A DNA stretch of 40,884 nt from Bacteroidia bacterium (GTDB lineage: Bacteria > Bacteroidota > Bacteroidia > Flavobacteriales_E > Vicingaceae). A model generated the notes under the pieces. It ran no database searches. It was not told the origin of the DNA and saw nothing but the letters and a program-made list of their open reading frames with translations. Shown one piece after another: positions 1-9,796 of this stretch. The stretch covers positions 1 to 40,884 of the forward strand of contig JAUHYR010000014.1 of assembly GCA_030426475.1 (NCBI GenBank), in the 5' to 3' direction. A program made the translations under genes and the position numbers. Each line of letters starts with the position of its first letter. Position 1 is the first letter of the stretch.

Positions 1-518
1 GTATTTTTGCAATCGTACCAAGCCACAAACTTCTTTACCATATTAACTCCCATTGGAAAGAATTTATCCCATTGAGTACAAGTAGCAGCATCAATTTCTG
101 CAGTTGATGTATTTAATGGTCCAGGCCAATAGTTGTCACCATTAGCTCTAAATGTTGATGCGGCTAATTTTAACTGGCCATTAACATCTTGTCCTCCGAG
201 CCATAAACCCGATGAGTAAATAGCTGTTGACCCAGATGCTTTAGGAACAACATAATCTGCAGTTCCGGTTGCTCTATCTTGAAACATAGTTCCACCGTTT
301 TCAACTCTGGCATCAACATTATTAAAATTTAACCTAATAATTGCCGTAGCAGGACTACATCCGGCAGCAATAACAGGACCTCCACTATTTCCTCCCGGAG
401 CTTCACTGTTAGCATTTTTATTATACCAACCAAATGAATTAATGGTTGAAAAAGCTAGAACAGAAGCCATTATTAACTTAGTTCTTCTCATATTTTGAAT
501 ATTTTTAATTGCTTTCAT
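1..518 (-). CDS. Large exported protein, N-terminal part only (runs off left edge)
   Basis: Open frame from an ATG at 518 down to base 1 with no stop, so only about 172 N-terminal residues are visible. A signal peptide is seen (hydrophobic stretch LIMASVLAFSTINSFG). It is followed by a segment with NNVDARVENGG, then SGLWLGGQDVNGQLKLAAS and a GDNYWPGPL motif. I recall this N-terminal pattern from very large Bacteroidota surface proteins that usually end in a T9SS sorting domain, but that end lies outside the window. An AAAGGAG Shine-Dalgarno-like sequence sits at 526-532, seven bases before the ATG. That is strong for this phylum and supports the start. The gene begins 27 bp after the TonB receptor stop, so the two are probably co-transcribed and may work as receptor and surface partner (inference). 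Exact function unknown. Confidence 0.75.
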   Translation of the reverse strand, partial: MKAIKNIQNMRRTKLIMASVLAFSTINSFGWYNKNANSEAPGGNSGGPVIAAGCSPATAIIRLNFNNVDARVENGGTMFQDRATGTADYVVPKASGSTAIYSSGLWLGGQDVNGQLKLAASTFRANGDNYWPGPLNTSTAEIDAATCTQWDKFFPMGVNMVKKFVAWYDCKN

Positions 519-545: not shown

Positions 546-3500
546 TTAAAAATTTAACATTACTCCAAGTCTAATTCTTCTTGGAAGAGCATACATTGTT
601 GGTTCAGCCATTTTAATTGTATAATAGTCTTTATAAGACTGGATATCAAGCTGTGAGTTTATCTGAGATTGATAAGTAGCTTCTTGCAAGAAACCGTCAT
701 CATCCGGATCCCCAGTTGCTGAGTAGACATTAATAATATTTTGACTATTTAATACATTTAATACTTGTAAATAGACATTAAGAGCAGCTGATTTTCTTTC
801 TTCACCTTCTTTTTCTTTACCAAAATAAACTTCAAAATCTCTATCTAAACGAGCATCCATAGTAAATGTCCATGGTAAATTAGAACCATTTACACTTCCT
901 TCTACTGAATTAGAAGTACGAGAAAATAATCTTGTACCAATAACCCTATCTTTTTTGGTATATGGTGTTCCGGAACCTGCTCTTGAAGTAATATTTAAGC
1001 CTGTATTTTCAAGAATATCTTTTCCAAATAATTTTGGTCCATTGTAATTTTTTCCAGATGCATATCTATAATCACCCACCACTTGTATAGCATGTCTCTG
1101 GTCAATATCAAGTGGAAAGATTGCTCTTAAATTAGGATCTCCTGAGTTAATTAAATTAAGAGCCGATAAGTCCCCTGAACCGGTTCCGCTAGCAAATTGC
1201 AAGGTATAACTAGCCTTTAACCATATGTTTTTAATTCTTCTTAAATCATAAGCTACCGTAGTTCCTTTAATAGTACCAAAGTCTTTATTTCCAAAAGTTC
1301 TATAAGTTACCGGATAAGCACCAACTATTTGGGTTACCTGAACCTGATTTCTCATCTCTCTATAGAATGCGGCAATTTTTAATGATGAGTTACTATTTAA
1401 CTTTTGTTGAAAACCTAACTCATAGTCAATGGTAGTTTGTGGCTTAAGGTTCGGGTTATTGTGAACTACATTTCTACTTGTAATATATTGATAATCAATT
1501 ACATTTAATCTATTTCTTGATGGTGGTCTTTGAGTTAAAATGTCATAGTGTGCAAAGAAAAGGGCTTCATCTGAAATAGGGAACGAGAAAGCAATTCTAG
1601 GCATTACATTAATTTGTGGTTTATAATCTTCGAAAGCCTCAGAAGACAAGTCTGTTTGAGTGCTTTTTTTAGTTGGGTCTAACAACCATGGAGTAATACC
1701 CTTAGCAGTTTCTAAAGTGCTAGGTCCAGTTAATTCTTGCCCTTGAGCATTATACCAAGTATCGCCATTTCTATAGCCAACAATATTGTCTGTACCAGGG
1801 TTATCCACATCACCAACATAAACAACATAATCACCTCCAATGTTTGAAGGGTGTTCGAAATCAACCTCTCCGGCAGTTTTTGTAGGAAATAGTGAATAAC
1901 GGTCTTTTAATACCGGCTGATTAGCATCATATCTATCTACCCTTAAACCTACGTTAAAAATTAAATCATCGAATGAGAATTTATCCTGAATATAAGCAGC
2001 AGTGTATATTGGTTGAAATGCCGGAACATTTCTAGAGAAAACCCCATTTTCATCTGTTTTATTAAAATAATCATCTATAGTTGGATTCCCTTTAATCTTA
2101 TTTCCGGCATAGTCAAACCCAGCATAATCTACTGCGCCATTATTCAGCAACTCATCTGCACTAAAATCAGCAACTTCCCATAAATCTTTCCCATAAGAGT
2201 CAAAATCAATCCAATCGGTACCATCAACAGCAAGCCCTAACTTTTCCCTGATATTCTTTGAAAACTCAGATTGAGATGATTCATCATATAGCCTTTCAAA
2301 ATCATAATAGAAATTATTGCCATTTGCATATATAATGGTGTATTGACTTTCATCTAATTGTTCAATATGACTATTTACAATATTTCTTCCAACAGTCCAA
2401 AGCCCTACTGGCGCTAAGCTATAAAATTTATCATTTCGTTGTTCATACTCAAAACCAATTTGAACAGCATGGTTTTTTATATCTGCAGAACCAGAAGCAG
2501 TTACTCTAAATTGAGAGTTATTGTCTTTATAGTAGTTGTTTCTAATATATCCTGCAGGAGACCACATATCATATATATTAAAAGGGAATCCACCATTTAA
2601 TATACCGCCACCTTGTTGAACATCTATAGCAGTTTCATAATTACCCGGTATAATTAAATTTCCGTTTTCATCTTTATATAGGTCGTAATATACCTTATTA
2701 TAATTAGATAAATATGGATTATTTATGCTATCATATTCATACATATAACTTAATTGATTAAATCCATTATGAAACCACCCACTTCTAATTGAACCATCAG
2801 GTAATTGATAATTACTTCTGTATTCATAAGAATTTTCAAAGTCTGAGTAAAACTTTCCCACATACCCATAAGCAGCATAATCATCTTTAAACCTTGAGCT
2901 TTGGACAGTAGTTTTACTGTTTGTATAATCTACTTGAAATGACACATATGCATTTTTAATCGTAGAAGCATCTTCTTCACCACCAGTTGAATTAGCAAAC
3001 CTTTGAGTAAACCTACCATAAACTCGCCAATCTTGGTCAATCTGTTGGGGATTGTTCTCATAATTCATTAATGAGAAAGCACCTCCAGAGCCAGTATTGG
3101 AAGAAGTAGTTCTTACATATTGGTTACCATTGTTATATAGGTAAGTCCCTCCAAATGTTAAATTAATGTTCTCAGTTGTTTTAACATCAATTTTTGCTTG
3201 TAAGTTAATACCTTTACTTTGAACATTTTGTCGTGCTTTTACCTTTTCAAAATCATCTGTGTGTAGGAATTCTGCGTTTCTAAATGTACCTGAACCTAAA
3301 CCAGATGGTCTTAGAGGTGTTTCGGTGATATCTGCTAAAACACTATCTCTGATTTTCCAGTCCCCTATAGCTGAAGGTCTAGGGTCAAGTTGATAAAATA
3401 ATTCACCTGATAGAAAGAAACCTAATAATGGGTCAGTTTTTTTACCTGCTGTATCTTTTTTCATTAAGAGGGGCCCTGCAACATTAAATCCTAATAAATT

Positions 3501-4274
3501 ATATCCATAAGCATCAAGACCATAAGATTTACCTTTAATAGGAACTCCTGAGGATAATAACTCAATACCTCCAAAATATTCTCTAGAAGGTCCTCTTGTA
3601 GTAATACTTACAACACCACCCGTTGCATCACCATAGTTGGCAGGAACACCACCAGTAACAACTTTAACTTCCGATATAGCTGATTGTGGTAACCTTGAAC
3701 TACCTCTAACCTTAACTCCATCAATAAATGTATTAGAAGCATCTCCTCTTGATCCTCTAATATTTAAACTACCGCTACCATCATCCTGAGTAAATACTCC
3801 ACCAACGGTTGCTGCAACTGAAGCAGCAGACCTCCCCGGCATTTTTGCAATTTCATCTCTCGTTAATGTTCCACCAGAAGATGTTTGATCTTTACTAATT
3901 AAAGGAACTTCATATTCTACTACTTCAAATGCCTCTAAGTCAACTCCACCTTCACTAAGATTTACGTCTAGGAAAGTAGCTTTATCAGCATTGATAATGA
4001 CACCATTATATTGTTTGTTATCATAACCTATATAGGAAGCTTGAACAACATAAGTTCCTGGAGTAATGGGTTTAATAGAATACTTTCCGTCAAAATCAGT
4101 TGTTGCAAAAGCTACCTGATTACCATTCAACAATACTACTACGTTGGCAAAGGGTAAGGCTTCTCCGCTTTTAGCGTCTTTTACCTTCCCTCTTAATTCT
4201 CCTTGTCCTACTTGAGCTGATGCAGAAAAAGCAATAGCTCCTACAATAAATGATGTAATAATTCGTTTTATCAT
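546..4274 (-). CDS. TonB-dependent outer membrane receptor with CarboxypepD_reg-like domain
   Basis: About 1242 residues from the chosen ATG at 4274. An in-frame ATG at 4319 exists, but the signal peptide (MIKRIITSFIVGAIAFSASA) begins at the second Met, so I use that one. After the signal peptide comes a carboxypeptidase-regulatory-like beta-sandwich (GELRGKVKDAKSGEALPFAN, then DGKYSIKPITPGTYVV). A plug domain follows (LNIRGSRGDASNTFIDGVKV, GGVPANYGDATGGVVSI), then a long beta-barrel ending in an aromatic C-terminus (GVMLNF), typical of outer membrane proteins. It should move an unknown substrate across the outer membrane using TonB energy. No SusD gene follows. Instead an exported protein gene starts 27 bp downstream, so this is not a classical SusC/SusD pair. 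A LytTR-type repeat lies about 155 bp upstream of the start. Substrate cannot be read from sequence. Confidence 0.9.
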   Translation of the reverse strand: MIKRIITSFIVGAIAFSASAQVGQGELRGKVKDAKSGEALPFANVVVLLNGNQVAFATTDFDGKYSIKPITPGTYVVQASYIGYDNKQYNGVIINADKATFLDVNLSEGGVDLEAFEVVEYEVPLISKDQTSSGGTLTRDEIAKMPGRSAASVAATVGGVFTQDDGSGSLNIRGSRGDASNTFIDGVKVRGSSRLPQSAISEVKVVTGGVPANYGDATGGVVSITTRGPSREYFGGIELLSSGVPIKGKSYGLDAYGYNLLGFNVAGPLLMKKDTAGKKTDPLLGFFLSGELFYQLDPRPSAIGDWKIRDSVLADITETPLRPSGLGSGTFRNAEFLHTDDFEKVKARQNVQSKGINLQAKIDVKTTENINLTFGGTYLYNNGNQYVRTTSSNTGSGGAFSLMNYENNPQQIDQDWRVYGRFTQRFANSTGGEEDASTIKNAYVSFQVDYTNSKTTVQSSRFKDDYAAYGYVGKFYSDFENSYEYRSNYQLPDGSIRSGWFHNGFNQLSYMYEYDSINNPYLSNYNKVYYDLYKDENGNLIIPGNYETAIDVQQGGGILNGGFPFNIYDMWSPAGYIRNNYYKDNNSQFRVTASGSADIKNHAVQIGFEYEQRNDKFYSLAPVGLWTVGRNIVNSHIEQLDESQYTIIYANGNNFYYDFERLYDESSQSEFSKNIREKLGLAVDGTDWIDFDSYGKDLWEVADFSADELLNNGAVDYAGFDYAGNKIKGNPTIDDYFNKTDENGVFSRNVPAFQPIYTAAYIQDKFSFDDLIFNVGLRVDRYDANQPVLKDRYSLFPTKTAGEVDFEHPSNIGGDYVVYVGDVDNPGTDNIVGYRNGDTWYNAQGQELTGPSTLETAKGITPWLLDPTKKSTQTDLSSEAFEDYKPQINVMPRIAFSFPISDEALFFAHYDILTQRPPSRNRLNVIDYQYITSRNVVHNNPNLKPQTTIDYELGFQQKLNSNSSLKIAAFYREMRNQVQVTQIVGAYPVTYRTFGNKDFGTIKGTTVAYDLRRIKNIWLKASYTLQFASGTGSGDLSALNLINSGDPNLRAIFPLDIDQRHAIQVVGDYRYASGKNYNGPKLFGKDILENTGLNITSRAGSGTPYTKKDRVIGTRLFSRTSNSVEGSVNGSNLPWTFTMDARLDRDFEVYFGKEKEGEERKSAALNVYLQVLNVLNSQNIINVYSATGDPDDDGFLQEATYQSQINSQLDIQSYKDYYTIKMAEPTMYALPRRIRLGVMLNF

Positions 4275-4428
4275 AATACCGAAAGATTTGTTAGTATGTG
4301 CGATTTTTAGCAAGGGCATAAAGGTATAAAATTATAGTTCTTATTTGCAAAATTTATTTTGGCTTATTCTTGCCACTTTAACTACCCTAAAATTACAGGG
4401 AAAGAAATGTTAAAAAAAGTGAAATCTA

Positions 4429-4458
4429 ATTAACGGTCGGTTTTTGTTAACTAACGGT
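4429..4458 (-). promoter_or_regulatory. Candidate LytTR-family binding site (two 9-bp direct repeats)
   Basis: On the minus strand ACCGTTAGT (4450-4458) is followed, after exactly 12 bp, by ACCGTTAAT (4429-4437). Both fit the published LytTR/AgrA 9-mer consensus [TA][AC][CA]GTTN[AG][TG] at every position, and LytTR sites are normally two such repeats spaced 12-13 bp apart. The site lies between the terminator of the acidic lipoprotein gene and the TonB receptor start at 4274, so it can only plausibly serve the receptor. Two LytTR regulators are encoded at 7893-9518. That one of them binds here is inference. Confidence 0.6.
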
Positions 4459-4481: not shown

Positions 4482-4513
4482 AAAAAAAGGTGCTAAATTT
4501 TAGCACCTTTTTT
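4482..4513 (-). terminator. Rho-independent terminator, possibly bidirectional
   Basis: A 9-bp perfect stem (GGTGCTAAA at 4489-4497 with TTTAGCACC at 4499-4507) is flanked by A7 on the left and T6 on the right. On the minus strand this gives stem then a U-tract, 18 bp after the stop of the acidic lipoprotein gene. The flanking tracts let it work in both directions, but no plus-strand gene reads into it. Confidence 0.85.
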
Positions 4514-4530
4514 AAATATATTATACAAAA

Positions 4531-4857
4531 TTATTTATTTCTAGAGTCATTATCATCATCGTCTTCTTTTTCATCACCACCAATCACAGACCCTGGACCA
4601 TTATCTTCACCTTTAATGATTTTTTTTCCGTTGTTATCTCCCGATGAGTCATTATCATCGTCCTCTTCTTTTTCATCACCACCAATTACTGAACCCGGAC
4701 CGTTATCACCTTCATTAAGAATGTTTGATGTCCTATTATATTCAGCCTCAGAGGTAGATGAACTACCCTTATCACATTTAGGAGCTATAAGTTCTTGTTT
4801 GGTACAAGAGCTTATTAAGATGATTAAAAACGCTGATATGTATGTTATAAACTTCAT
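4531..4857 (-). CDS. Small acidic lipoprotein with a duplicated module
   Basis: 108 residues. The N-terminus is a lipoprotein signal peptide with lipobox LISSC, lipidated Cys at residue 18. The mature part is strongly acidic (by my count 25 Asp/Glu against 11 Lys/Arg). It carries two copies of a module reading DNGPGSVIGGDEKE followed by a run of Asp and NDS. The last copy ends the protein. No known catalytic motif. It resembles the many short acidic lipoproteins of Bacteroidota for which no function is known. It has a consensus promoter just upstream and a clear terminator downstream, so it is a single-gene unit sitting between the sensor kinase gene and the LytTR-type repeat. Acidic repeats could bind cations or basic partners (inference only). 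Confidence 0.75.
   Translation of the reverse strand: MKFITYISAFLIILISSCTKQELIAPKCDKGSSSTSEAEYNRTSNILNEGDNGPGSVIGGDEKEEDDDNDSSGDNNGKKIIKGEDNGPGSVIGGDEKEDDDDNDSRNK
4544..4710 (-). repeat. Internal duplication in the acidic lipoprotein gene
   Basis: Two copies of about 65 bp, at 4544-4611 and 4646-4710, encode the same peptide module (DNGPGSVIGGDEKE plus acidic tail). They are separated by a short stretch encoding SGDNNGKKIIKG. The copies differ mainly at third codon positions, which suggests an old duplication kept by selection on the protein rather than a recent slippage event. Confidence 0.7.
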
Positions 4858-4907: not shown

Positions 4908-7877
4908 TTAGAATTGTTTATAAGCAACAATAATTTCCACTTTAGTCCCTAAAACTTTATCACCCTCTTTAATTTCTTGAGGACCAATTATTTCTAAAGG
5001 TTTGTTGGTCATTTCAGCAATTAATTTTAGCCTATTTTTTGTAATGTTCATGCCTTTTGATACGTGATCTGAACTTTTTTGTTGCTTATTTTTCATGCTT
5101 TCTTCAATACCAATACCGTCATCAATTATTTCAAATTTTATAAGCTCATTATTAATCATACTAACTCTGATTGCAATGTTTCCTTTTTCATTTTTTGGTA
5201 AAATTCCATGCCATATTGAATTTTCTACAAATGGTTGAAGTAACATTGCCGGAATTTTTATTTGCTCAGATACAATAGACTTGTCAATATCTATTGTATA
5301 ATCAAACTTATCGGTAAATCTCATTTTTTCTAATTTGAGATATAAAGATAATCGGTCTATTTCTTCTTCAAGAGTAACGGTATTTGATTCACTACTGTCT
5401 AGATTTTTACGAATTAGTTTTGCAAAACTTGATAAATATAAGTTGGCAGATTTTCTATCTTGAGTATTGATATAATACTGTATAGAGTTGAGTGAATTAA
5501 AAATAAAATGTCTATTCATGCTTGAATTGAGTGTTTGCTGTTCTAAAGCAAGCATTTTAGATCTGTAATATAGTTGCTGGGTATGCTCTTTTTGCCTGCG
5601 AGCTTTTTTTCTGAATGAATAGATGCTGAATAAAATGGATAGACAAAAAATTGCAGAAATAGAAATAAACCACCAGGTTAAATAATAGGGTGTTAAAATT
5701 GTGAAAGGAAATTTAGCTTCAGAGAATGTTCTAAAATCATTTACCGAAGAAATAACTTTAAAAGTGTACTTTCCATGAGGTAGATTTGAGTAGGTGGCTG
5801 TATTTATGTCGGTAACGGGAAGCCATCCTTCATCGAGTCCCTCTAACATAAATTTATACTGAACCTTATCAGGTCCTGAATGATAAATACCAATAAAATC
5901 AAAAGACAAATAGTTTTGCTTGAAGTTAAGTTTTAAATTCATGGGTAATCCCAAGCTATCTTGTTGAAAGTTTGACCATGAGTTATCTTCTAAAAAAAGC
6001 CTCACATTTCTGATTGATAATATAGGAGCTGATAGATTACTCTTAAACTTTGTATTTGAAAATTTTACTAATCCTTTACTCGTTCCGGCCCAGAGATTAT
6101 TTTCTACATCTATATATACGGCATTTTGATTACACTCTAAGCTCGGAAGTCCATCTTGTTTAGTGAAATGCATAGCCTCAGTAAGGTTGTTTATATAAAG
6201 CTCAGATAAACTAAGTTGGAAAACACCATTATTGGTTCCAATCCACAGACTGTTGTCAGACGTATCAAATTTTAGAAACACAATTTGTTTTGACCTGAGG
6301 TCATTTGAAAATTTAATTTCACTAAACTTATCATCCTTGAATAAAAACAATCCCTGATCTGTTCCAACCCATAAGTTTTTACTATGGTCTTTTTCGATAC
6401 AAAACGCTTTGGTGAATGGTGTATTTTTTTTAATAAATTCTTTGGTGGATTTATCTAGACAATATACTCCGTTTGAGGTGGCAAACCAAAACGTATTTTT
6501 ATAATTAATGATACTTCTAACACTTTCGCCAATAGAATTTTTTCCGCTAGGAAAGTTAATGATGCTGTCATTTTCAGTTATGATTGATACTCCCTCTAAT
6601 GTTCCTAACCAAATATCTCCATTGGTGTCTTCATTAATTGTCCACACTTTTTTTGATAGTAGTCCTTTATCCGTTGAAATAGTTTTGATTTTATTTTCAT
6701 GAAATATTGAAACTCCGTCAGAGGTTGCAATCCAAACTCTATTTCTAGAGTCATTATAAATATACCACACAGTATTGTTTGATAGTCCGTTCGATGTAGT
6801 GTAGTTTATTACGCTTTCATTTTCATTACTTTTTTGAACTACTCCGTTGCCATAAGTTCCTATCCAATAGTTTTTTTTATTATCTTGAGTGATACTCATG
6901 ACAATGTCAGAAGGCAGTAGGTCTTTCTGAGAAAAATAGGTTATTCTATCAGATGTAAATTTTAAAATACCGCTTCCATCAGTTCCAAACCAAATATTTC
7001 CCTCTCTATCTTCAAAAATGACTTTTACATTATCATTCACCATTCCATCGTTAATGGTATATGTTGAAATATTGTTGTTAGATATTTTGGAAACACCACT
7101 TTTTGATGCTACCCAAATTTGGTTTTTAGAATCAGAAATTAACCATCTTACTTGCTCGTTGCACAATCCATCTTCGGTAGATAAATTTTTAACAAAATCA
7201 TTACCTACTTGGTATATGCCATTCCCAAATGTTGATAATATAAACTCATTATTCTGTTCAGTAATTTTTGAGAAATTTTGATTAGGTAGATTGTTAAATA
7301 CTCGTATAAATGTGGAATCACTTTTAAGTTTAAATACTCCGTTTTTAGTTATGAAATATAAATCATTGTTTTTAGAGCTATATATGTCTCGTACATGTAA
7401 ATTGGTTATTCCATGTTTTTGATTGTAATATATAAAGCTGTTGTCTTTAAATTGGCATACACCTTCTTCCGTGCCTACCCATAATGAATTATTGTGCTCA
7501 GCAATGGAAATAATAAAGTTGTTTGATAGCTGATTAGGTAGTGGAAAGTTGGTAAAACCTTTTCCGTTGAATTTACTTAAGTATCCTATCGTTCCAATCC
7601 AAATGTTTCCTTGCTTGTCTTTAAAAAGAGAGGTTATTTGATTATCGGGCAATCCGTTTTCTGTAAAAAAATTCTGAAAACTTTTACCGTCAAATCTACT
7701 GAGCCCACTTCTTGTGCCAATCCATAGATATCCTAAATTTCCTTGAGTTATGGCCGTTACCTGAGATTGTGCTAGTCCGTCTTCAACATTGTAATTTATA
7801 AAATTATACTGTTGTGCTTCGGAGAAACAGACAGATAAAAGAAAACTATATAGAAACAAATACTTTAGCCAATTCAT
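4908..7877 (-). CDS. Reg_prop sensor histidine kinase of the LytS (His_kinase) type
   Basis: 989 residues. N-terminal signal peptide (KYLFLYSFLLSVCFSEAQ), then about 13 Reg_prop motifs of the LWIGT..GLSRF type (for example NLGYLWIGTRSGLSRFDG, REGNIWFGTDGSGILKF), enough for two seven-bladed periplasmic propellers. A Y_Y_Y domain follows (KFMLEGLDEGW, LPHGKYTFKV). One membrane helix is at about 743-763, then a short coiled coil. The kinase part has the phospho-acceptor motif HFIFNSLNSIQ with His790, an N-box Asn near 886 (FVENSIWHG) and DDGIGI at 919-924. The residue before the His is Arg rather than the more usual Pro. It is not a hybrid HTCS: there is no receiver or AraC domain. It starts 15 bp after the stop of the LytTR regulator gene, so kinase and regulators are one operon. 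Ligand unknown. Confidence 0.9.
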   Translation of the reverse strand: MNWLKYLFLYSFLLSVCFSEAQQYNFINYNVEDGLAQSQVTAITQGNLGYLWIGTRSGLSRFDGKSFQNFFTENGLPDNQITSLFKDKQGNIWIGTIGYLSKFNGKGFTNFPLPNQLSNNFIISIAEHNNSLWVGTEEGVCQFKDNSFIYYNQKHGITNLHVRDIYSSKNNDLYFITKNGVFKLKSDSTFIRVFNNLPNQNFSKITEQNNEFILSTFGNGIYQVGNDFVKNLSTEDGLCNEQVRWLISDSKNQIWVASKSGVSKISNNNISTYTINDGMVNDNVKVIFEDREGNIWFGTDGSGILKFTSDRITYFSQKDLLPSDIVMSITQDNKKNYWIGTYGNGVVQKSNENESVINYTTSNGLSNNTVWYIYNDSRNRVWIATSDGVSIFHENKIKTISTDKGLLSKKVWTINEDTNGDIWLGTLEGVSIITENDSIINFPSGKNSIGESVRSIINYKNTFWFATSNGVYCLDKSTKEFIKKNTPFTKAFCIEKDHSKNLWVGTDQGLFLFKDDKFSEIKFSNDLRSKQIVFLKFDTSDNSLWIGTNNGVFQLSLSELYINNLTEAMHFTKQDGLPSLECNQNAVYIDVENNLWAGTSKGLVKFSNTKFKSNLSAPILSIRNVRLFLEDNSWSNFQQDSLGLPMNLKLNFKQNYLSFDFIGIYHSGPDKVQYKFMLEGLDEGWLPVTDINTATYSNLPHGKYTFKVISSVNDFRTFSEAKFPFTILTPYYLTWWFISISAIFCLSILFSIYSFRKKARRQKEHTQQLYYRSKMLALEQQTLNSSMNRHFIFNSLNSIQYYINTQDRKSANLYLSSFAKLIRKNLDSSESNTVTLEEEIDRLSLYLKLEKMRFTDKFDYTIDIDKSIVSEQIKIPAMLLQPFVENSIWHGILPKNEKGNIAIRVSMINNELIKFEIIDDGIGIEESMKNKQQKSSDHVSKGMNITKNRLKLIAEMTNKPLEIIGPQEIKEGDKVLGTKVEIIVAYKQF

Positions 7878-7892
7878 TATGGCAAATGTAGC

Positions 7893-8645
7893 TTAAAGTA
7901 CATTGATATGCTCTAAAAAATCACTTAGCTTTCTTCTTGAAACAGGAATTTTACTCCCATCAGACATAATGGCAATATTGCCATCGTTTCTGGAAAACTC
8001 TGAAAGGTGAGATGAAAAATTTATAATATGAGACTTATGAACACGCATAAATTTAGATTGGTCAAGAATTTCCTCAAATGATTTTATGTTTTTACTACTC
8101 ATCAGCTTTCTGTTATTAGTTAAGTACACTTTTGTATAACTTTCATCGGCCTCTAAGTGAATAATGTCTTCGGGTTTTATAATAATGTACCCGCTACTTG
8201 AAGGAATTCCTATGGTTTGGTTTTTTCCGGAAACTGTTTCATGAATTAATGCTTTAATTTCATTAACGGAGGGAGTTGAAGTGTTACTTTCTTTACTTTT
8301 TGCAATACGTTGAATAGTCTCTGTTACAGCATCAATATCAATTGGTTTCTCTAAATAGTTAAAGGCGTTTGCCTTAAATGCTTGAAGAGCGTACTCATTA
8401 TGTGCTGTGGTAAATACCACTGAAAAGTTTCGGTTTTCAATACTATCTAAAAATGCAAACCCGTCTTCCTTTGGCATTTTTATATCTAAAAATACAATGT
8501 CAGGGTTAAAATCAATTACTTTTTGTCGAGCTTCTTGCGCTGATTCAGCAGTTTCAATAGCATCAATTTCAGTGCAATAGTCTTCTAAAATCATTTTTAA
8601 ATTTTCACGACAGTTAAATTCATCATCAACAATAAGTGCTCTCAT
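7893..8645 (-). CDS. LytTR-family response regulator, adjacent to the kinase gene
   Basis: 250 residues. Receiver domain at about 1-115 with acidic pair Asp7/Asp8, phospho-acceptor Asp54 (VFLDIKMP), Thr80 and Lys100 (LEKP). LytTR DNA-binding domain at about 145-245 (IIHLEADESYTKVYL, FMRVHKSHIINF, IPVSRRKL). It is expected to accept phosphate from the LytS-type kinase encoded 15 bp downstream and to bind paired 9-bp repeats. A second regulator of the same type lies upstream with a 78-bp gap, in which I see no clear promoter or terminator. Candidate target: the repeat at 4429-4458. Confidence 0.93.
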   Translation of the reverse strand: MRALIVDDEFNCRENLKMILEDYCTEIDAIETAESAQEARQKVIDFNPDIVFLDIKMPKEDGFAFLDSIENRNFSVVFTTAHNEYALQAFKANAFNYLEKPIDIDAVTETIQRIAKSKESNTSTPSVNEIKALIHETVSGKNQTIGIPSSSGYIIIKPEDIIHLEADESYTKVYLTNNRKLMSSKNIKSFEEILDQSKFMRVHKSHIINFSSHLSEFSRNDGNIAIMSDGSKIPVSRRKLSDFLEHINVL

Positions 8646-8723
8646 AGTAGTAAATTTTGAACCAATTTAACTAAATCTATTTTGGGTATCAATAAATTTA
8701 TATTGAGCGTACTCTTTTTTTGA

Positions 8724-9518
8724 TTAAGCGTTTTTTTGGATGAAGAATTCCTTAATTTTTGTACTAAATTCACTGGTTCTTCGGTGAGATACCGGAAGAG
8801 TAATATCGTCAGTTAAACTAACTGAAGGGTTTTCAGAGGTTTTATAACTGTTAATGCAGGTTAAATTAACGATATAAGACTTGTGAATTCTAAAAAAGGA
8901 TTTTGGAAGAATTTCTTCATAAGTTTTGAGTGTTCTTGTATCTAAAAACTTTTCTCTATTTTTAAAATGGATGTTGGTATAGTTTCCTTGTGCCTCTAGA
9001 TAAAGTATTTTATCTAACTCCACTACTTTAATTCCCTTTTGATGAGAGATGACTATTTTTTCAATATTACTTTTATTGTTTATTTGCTTCTGCAACAAGT
9101 CAATAGAATTAGTGTATTCTTTCTGATTTTCTTTAGAACCAAAAATTTGTTCATAGGCTTTACTTGCCTTTTCTACAGCGCTAATTAGTTCGTCAATATC
9201 AACTGGTTTTAATAAATAATGTATGGCCGAAGCATTAAATGCTCTTATGGCAAATTCTTTAAAAGCGGTAACAAATACCACTAAAAAATCTTTTTTTTCT
9301 ATTGACTCTAGTAATTCAAGACCTTCAATTCCTGAAGGCATTCTAATATCTAAGAATACAATGTTTGGATGTAGTGTTGATATTAATTCTTTTGCCTTTT
9401 TAGTATTATCGGCAGTTTCTAAAACGTTTATATTTGGGCAATAATCTGATAAAAGAATCTTAAGGTTTTCTCTGGCAGGTAGTTCGTCATCAACTATAAT
9501 TGCTGTGTATTGCTTCAT
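8724..9518 (-). CDS. LytTR-family response regulator, second copy
   Basis: 264 residues. Receiver at about 1-118 with Asp10/Asp11, phospho-acceptor Asp57 (VFLDIRMP), Thr84 and Lys104 (LLKP). A linker of about 35 residues with some coiled-coil character follows, then LytTR at about 155-258 (ILYLEAQGNYTNIHF, FFRIHKSYIVNL, LPVSHRR). It is clearly a paralogue of the regulator at 7893-8645, but all key residues are intact in both, so neither looks dead. The start codon overlaps the stop of the basic exported protein gene by one base (TAATG), which indicates translational coupling. Confidence 0.93.
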   Translation of the reverse strand: MKQYTAIIVDDELPARENLKILLSDYCPNINVLETADNTKKAKELISTLHPNIVFLDIRMPSGIEGLELLESIEKKDFLVVFVTAFKEFAIRAFNASAIHYLLKPVDIDELISAVEKASKAYEQIFGSKENQKEYTNSIDLLQKQINNKSNIEKIVISHQKGIKVVELDKILYLEAQGNYTNIHFKNREKFLDTRTLKTYEEILPKSFFRIHKSYIVNLTCINSYKTSENPSVSLTDDITLPVSHRRTSEFSTKIKEFFIQKNA

Positions 9519-9796
9519 TATTTTCTTTTCCTTCTAAAAATGCCTTTTTTCTCTCTATGCATTTTTTTAGTCCTTCTTAAGTTTTTTTTCATTCGTTTCC
9601 TAGTTTTTTTATCCTGAATTCTTTGATGTCTTTGAATTCCTTCTTCATGGCCTTTTTTTGCAGCTTCTTCCTTTGCTTTTTCCTGTTTTTCAAGTTGCTT
9701 TTTCCTTTTTTCAGCATTTTGCTGGGAAAAAGTGGGATTCATAAAACTAAATAGAATAATAGGTAAAACCGCTAACAATAATTTCTTTAAGTTCAT
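9518..9796 (-). CDS. Small, very basic exported protein
   Basis: 92 residues: signal peptide (LLLAVLPIILFSFMNPTFSQ), then about 68 residues of which I count 30 Lys/Arg and 9 Asp/Glu. The mature part is expected to be largely helical (EKRKKQLEKQEKAKEE) and ends in GIFRRKRK. I recall similar short Lys/Arg-rich exported proteins in other Bacteroidota, all uncharacterised. The stop overlaps the start of the response regulator gene, so it heads the regulator-kinase operon. A role as a partner, ligand or cell-wall/LPS-binding component of the sensing system is inference. It could also simply bind anionic envelope polymers. Confidence 0.75.
   Translation of the reverse strand: MNLKKLLLAVLPIILFSFMNPTFSQQNAEKRKKQLEKQEKAKEEAAKKGHEEGIQRHQRIQDKKTRKRMKKNLRRTKKMHREKKGIFRRKRK

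Follow-up and report, generated by a model that had tools for sequence, protein, structure and literature searches.

A conserved candidate LytTR operator points to control of a TonB receptor operon by an adjacent propeller-kinase system in the Vicingaceae

The repeats of LytTR regulators are separated by 11-13 bp (PMC4847170), lie mostly 12 bp apart and close upstream of the -35 element, are autoregulatory (PMC6193735), and in the case of AgrA are centred near -60 (PMC4227749). Three described systems offer the closest comparisons with the locus presented here. In HdrRM/BrsRM of Streptococcus mutans (PMC6193735), 12-bp-spaced direct repeats sit just upstream of the promoter and the same repeat type autoregulates the regulators' own operon, the first as here and the second as we propose below for relatives, but these regulators pair with membrane proteins rather than kinases and their targets are bacteriocin and competence genes, whereas our locus joins a propeller kinase to a TonB receptor gene with a -7 box of the Bacteroidota type. 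AgrA, at agr P2/P3 of Staphylococcus aureus (PMC4227749), is likewise a LytTR response regulator with direct repeats near -60 of the promoters that it activates; our locus, however, comes from another phylum, has another half-site and a -7 box without a TTTG -33 element, and its relatives have no recognisable second half-site. In the YpdA/YpdB system of Escherichia coli (PMC4847170), a LytS/LytTR-type pair acts on a direct repeat in the target promoter at yhjX, again as here, but the half-sites are GGCATTTCAT, there is no propeller sensor and the target is not a TonB receptor. In the literature that we searched, neither a target nor an operator is described for a propeller LytS-type kinase paired with LytTR regulators.

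The window, by which we mean the whole 40,884-nucleotide stretch of DNA analysed here, from a Bacteroidia bacterium of the family Vicingaceae, contains such a pairing upstream of a receptor gene:

3..518, minus strand: exported partner gene, its 3' end beyond the window, separated from the receptor by a 27-bp gap
546..4274, minus strand: TonB-dependent receptor (CarboxypepD_reg and Plug in Pfam), ATG at 4274, the proposed target gene
4531..4857, minus strand: small acidic lipoprotein, LIPO, with GGDEKEDDDD repeats
4908..7877, minus strand: propeller (Reg_prop/Y_Y_Y) LytS-type histidine kinase, from Pfam and orthologs
7893..8645, minus strand: RR1, receiver plus LytTR regulator (Pfam)
8724..9518, minus strand: RR2, receiver plus LytTR regulator (Pfam)

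A His_kinase (PF06580) sensor thus adjoins receiver-LytTR regulators, as in LytS/LytTR-type two-component systems, and relatives keep the operon order; the minus-strand order upstream of LIPO is KRP (a small basic protein), RR2, RR1 and kinase. The receptor start and the two regulator genes lie where the initial annotation had put them. Propeller kinases of this LytS type are numerous in the family. The exported partner gene is probably co-transcribed with the receptor, and of 58 loci compared over the class, 51 have a homolog of it beside the receptor (L006-L034, L233-L261). The receptor itself has no sequence match in the PDB, and no NCBIfam model scores above its cut-off. KRP (9518-9796; basic, lysine/arginine-rich, exported) and P9836 (9836-10261; no Pfam family) form a divergent pair conserved through the family, which adjoins either the receptor or the LytTR operon, depending on the genome.

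Between LIPO and the receptor, the minus strand reads ACCGTTAGT (4458-4450), 12 nucleotides, then ACCGTTAAT (4437-4429), an exact direct pair of 9-mers with a period of 21 bp (9-N12-9), which falls within the 11-13 bp separation and the 9-11 nt length of LytTR operators:

4450..4458, minus strand: distal half-site ACCGTTAGT, found in this genome only, at about -75 to -67 relative to the inferred P2 start
4429..4437, minus strand: proximal half-site ACCGTTAAT, about -54 to -46, conserved putative operator

Both 9-mers fit the broad consensus WMMGTTNRK, so the initial annotation was exact in reporting two consensus-matching 9-mers 12 bp apart. Its further claim, that such a pair is unlikely to arise by chance in one intergenic region, needs to be divided. 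When the window is shuffled 100 times, the expectation for the exact pair is 0.00, and a near-exact pair occurs in one of the 46 family genomes, namely this one. For degenerate consensus pairs the rate on one strand is about 2e-4 in a region of 200 bp, and for a given intergenic region the claim therefore holds. Across the 2.87-Mb genome, however, a search for the 9-N12-9 pattern finds 4 degenerate pairs against 7 in the reversed control; since consensus pairs are not enriched, fit to the consensus is by itself weak evidence and identifies nothing genome-wide, and we dropped the consensus-pair scan as support. Exact ACCGTT-N15-ACCGTT pairs likewise show no excess family-wide (about 70 against about 76 in the reversed control, a hand sum). 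An excess is confined to the genera g4, g5 and g14 (about 56 against about 25), where many matches are intergenic and ahead of genes for exported proteins or LytTR proteins.

As a separate observation, in g4 genomes (L156, L157, L161, L179) several genes of one genome are preceded by nearly the same pair, of the ACCGTTCATTGGTCAAAATCGACCGTT type, the genes encoding secreted proteins and one standalone LytTR protein; this suggests a second LytTR regulon, of exported proteins.

The case for an operator comes from its distribution. A receptor ortholog is present in 44 of 46 family genomes. Most genera have the arrangement P9836 <- -> KRP -> receptor, with neither kinase nor LytTR gene between. In the genome studied here, RR2-RR1-kinase-lipoprotein stands between KRP and receptor; in g5 and g14, KRP-RR2-RR1-kinase lies elsewhere in the genome and an acidic lipoprotein gene homologous to LIPO stands directly before the receptor. 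A CCGTT[ACT][AG] element occurs upstream of the receptor in 16/16 lipoprotein-positive family genomes but in only 1/27 lipoprotein-negative ones, the single exception (G014) having it at the KRP stop codon. Fisher's test gives p 6e-11 for this contrast, a value that ignores relatedness and treats relatives, which are non-independent samples, as independent; counted by lineage, about three carry the element, and joint loss has occurred at least twice.

The kinase follows nearly the same pattern. A full-length ortholog is found in 15 of the 16 genomes positive for lipoprotein and element. Among the first 14 g5/g14 genomes it is present in 12 and absent from G004 and G064, which are also without the lipoprotein gene and without any CCGTT within 400 bp upstream of the receptor. 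Three further g14 genomes served as a blind test: G027 and G067 were as predicted, and G034 was not, having the element and the lipoprotein but no kinase found at E<=1e-100 (the assembly is 89% complete, in 260 contigs). In the g5/g14 alignment the ACCGTT element is a conserved island between variable flanks. The comparison with relatives therefore divides the pair: the proximal repeat is kept together with the lipoprotein, and the distal repeat is not conserved, the relatives' receptor promoters showing one clear half-site and no recognisable second one. Receptor promoters of other families show no clear element even where the kinase is present, so the proposed receptor wiring is a trait at the level of the family.

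A promoter box follows the proximal half-site at a fixed distance. The -7 box mapped in Flavobacterium psychrophilum is TAnnTTTG, at -12 to -5 (PMC9723704), and a related box lies downstream of the repeats:

4388..4395, minus strand: P2 -7 box TAATTTTA, 42 bp from the proximal half-site

Counted from the first base of the proximal half-site, TAnnTTTA starts at exactly 42 bp in 15/16 lipoprotein-positive receptor promoters, this genome included, where shuffling expects 0.08 such matches; for this genome alone p=0.004. G034 has CATTTTTA at the position of the box, and G004 and G064 have no TAnnTTTA box at the corresponding place. Identity between this genome and its relatives is 0.89 in the operator, 0.28 in the 29-bp spacer and 0.76 in the box. 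We saw, reading by eye, no TTTG at the -33 position of P2. If the box is assumed to lie at -12 to -5, the 42-bp spacing places the half-sites at -75/-67 and -54/-46, with a centre near -60; the -7 box and the start site of P2 are thus inferred assignments.

A chance match of a loose consensus in AT-rich intergenic DNA, which the genome-wide count of 4 against 7 and the absence of the distal copy from relatives might suggest, is hardly credible against an element present in 16/16 versus 1/27 genomes, at a fixed 42-bp spacing and in a conserved island; conservation largely refutes it.

The receptor also has a second, downstream promoter, P1:

4347..4351, minus strand: P1 -33-type element TTTGC, its TTTG block conserved in the g5/g14 alignment
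4317..4326, minus strand: P1 -7 box TACCTTTATG

Counterparts of P1 are conserved in g5 and g14, including G004 and G064, which are without the LytTR site. We considered P1 as the promoter regulated by the site, an idea weakened by distances to the P1 -7 box of 82-85 bp in relatives and of 110 and 131 bp here. Because the distance from operator to P1 varies, whereas that from operator to the P2 box is constant in all, regulation of P1 is less favoured.

The tie between element and lipoprotein gene admits a different explanation, in which the ACCGTT block belongs to an RNA or terminator hairpin of that upstream gene and co-occurs with it for this reason. Hairpins of the family make this worth weighing: AACCGTTAAC is found in unrelated terminator-like hairpins of family genomes, and G022 has a local inverted repeat around the element. 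The alignment, however, yields no consensus structure (alifold energy 0), and a terminator-like hairpin in this genome lies upstream of the element:

4491..4513 (approximate), minus strand: terminator-like hairpin AAAGGTGCTAAAATTTAGCACCTTT, 3' of LIPO, between LIPO and the receptor unit, read from the sequence

A hairpin would also leave unexplained both the fixed distance to the -7 box and the core shared with the regulator operon, and we regard it as very unlikely.

That core recurs, with the same architecture, in the regulators' own operon. The g5/g14 gap behind RR2 contains two or three TACC[GA]TTTAAT repeats, and in 15/15 g5/g14 genomes a TAnnTTT[AG] box stands 40-42 bp beyond the last of them. 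The shared core and the shared box distance mean that one architecture marks both the receptor promoter and the RR1-kinase promoter. Over the gaps behind RR2 in 20 genomes of at least 6 families, self-match at a lag of 21 averages 10.7/14, against 6.7-7.9 at other lags (14-29). The corresponding gap in this genome holds a degenerate counterpart of the relatives' arrays (p=0.014 for the lag-21 repeat):

8671..8731, minus strand: weak 21-bp repeat ACGCTTAAT/ACGCTCAAT (8731, 8710) at the RR2-RR1 junction, lag-21 matches 10-11/14
8679-8671, minus strand, within that feature: possible -7 box

The array unit in g5 and g14, TACCGTTTAAT, stands as 2-3 direct repeats with a 21-bp period, and arrays of this kind keep their position behind RR2 across at least 6 families (L138-L149, L214-L232). 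We regard these arrays as putative autoregulatory LytTR operators. The receptor sites are not the best hits of a matrix derived from these arrays, only the ACCGTT core being common to both; the two regulators may prefer different sequences, or the flanks may not matter.

A LytTR operator need not answer to the neighbouring regulators. Kinase-lacking g4 genomes carry ACCGTT pairs before other genes, for which reason the regulator has to be assigned by co-occurrence and not by motif, and within this family ACCGTT has the look of a word common to LytTR regulators in general. The site could accordingly be read by C9 or C15, the two LytTR regulators that make up, with the two of this cluster, the four LytTR proteins of the whole genome, or in relatives by standalone LytTR proteins, before whose genes, as before those of exported proteins, ACCGTT-N15-ACCGTT pairs also stand in genomes without the kinase; the retention of the site in G034, where the kinase went undetected, points the same way. 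Yet G004 and G064 lose the site together with kinase and lipoprotein, the response-regulator operon shares the ACCGTT core and the 40-42 bp geometry, and this genome yielded no standalone LytTR protein. Another regulator is, in our judgement, improbable, although it is the alternative that we take most seriously.

We therefore return to the adjacent system, and consider it quite likely that the repeat pair is the LytTR operator of an activated promoter, P2, of the receptor operon, read by the adjacent kinase, RR1 and RR2. The propeller kinase would phosphorylate a LytTR regulator of the RR1/RR2 system; the phosphorylated regulator would bind both half-sites, which are spaced 21 bp and span about -75 to -46, and would recruit RNA polymerase to the P2 -7 box without a TTTG -33 element. 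P2 would then be an activator-dependent promoter for the TonB receptor together with its exported partner. The receptor would also be transcribed from P1, and in relatives the system would autoregulate through ACCGTT-type 21-bp repeats before RR1-kinase. Binding, phosphorylation, activation, the direction of regulation and the choice of RR1 or RR2 are all deduced from sequence. The initial annotation had predicted that the kinase controls the receptor and its partner; conservation of the proximal repeat, co-occurrence with the kinase, the fixed 42 bp and the shared ACCGTT all favour that prediction, while the distal repeat and the 9-mer consensus on which it drew do not.

The remaining member of the cluster is the lipoprotein. 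LIPO is Asp/Gly/Glu-rich, with a lipobox and GGDDxEDDDD-like stretches, and the copy in the window belongs to no Pfam or NCBIfam family. Among 20 genomes of other families, 18 encode an acidic lipoprotein immediately 3' of their propeller-kinase ortholog (L214-L232). From this genomic association, the acidic lipoprotein is a conserved, uncharacterised partner of the propeller kinase. There is no ACCGTT upstream of the lipoprotein gene in g5 and g14. We suggest tentatively, as a possibility of real but limited weight, that the kinase, the two LytTR regulators and the acidic lipoprotein constitute an envelope-sensing module of the Bacteroidia that is wired to the receptor through P2 and was lost jointly and repeatedly. 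On such a reading the lipoprotein would belong to the same circuit, as a signalling component or a surface one; the kinase-lipoprotein pair would have been kept across many families and wired, in this family, to a near-universal receptor and its partner; and the receptor wiring would have been lost together with the module several times.

The kind of regulation proposed here is already known; what would be new is a LytTR regulon with an unusually strict conserved architecture. The conserved candidate operator, with its fixed promoter geometry, would tie a propeller-kinase/LytTR system both to the operon that encodes it and to a single receptor operon, and the combination of ACCGTT, 40-42 bp and TAnnTTTR may provide a prediction rule for LytTR regulons of Bacteroidota. 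It gives a sensor system of undescribed function a definite target that can be put to the test, and it implicates an uncharacterised acidic lipoprotein as a possible component of the circuit.
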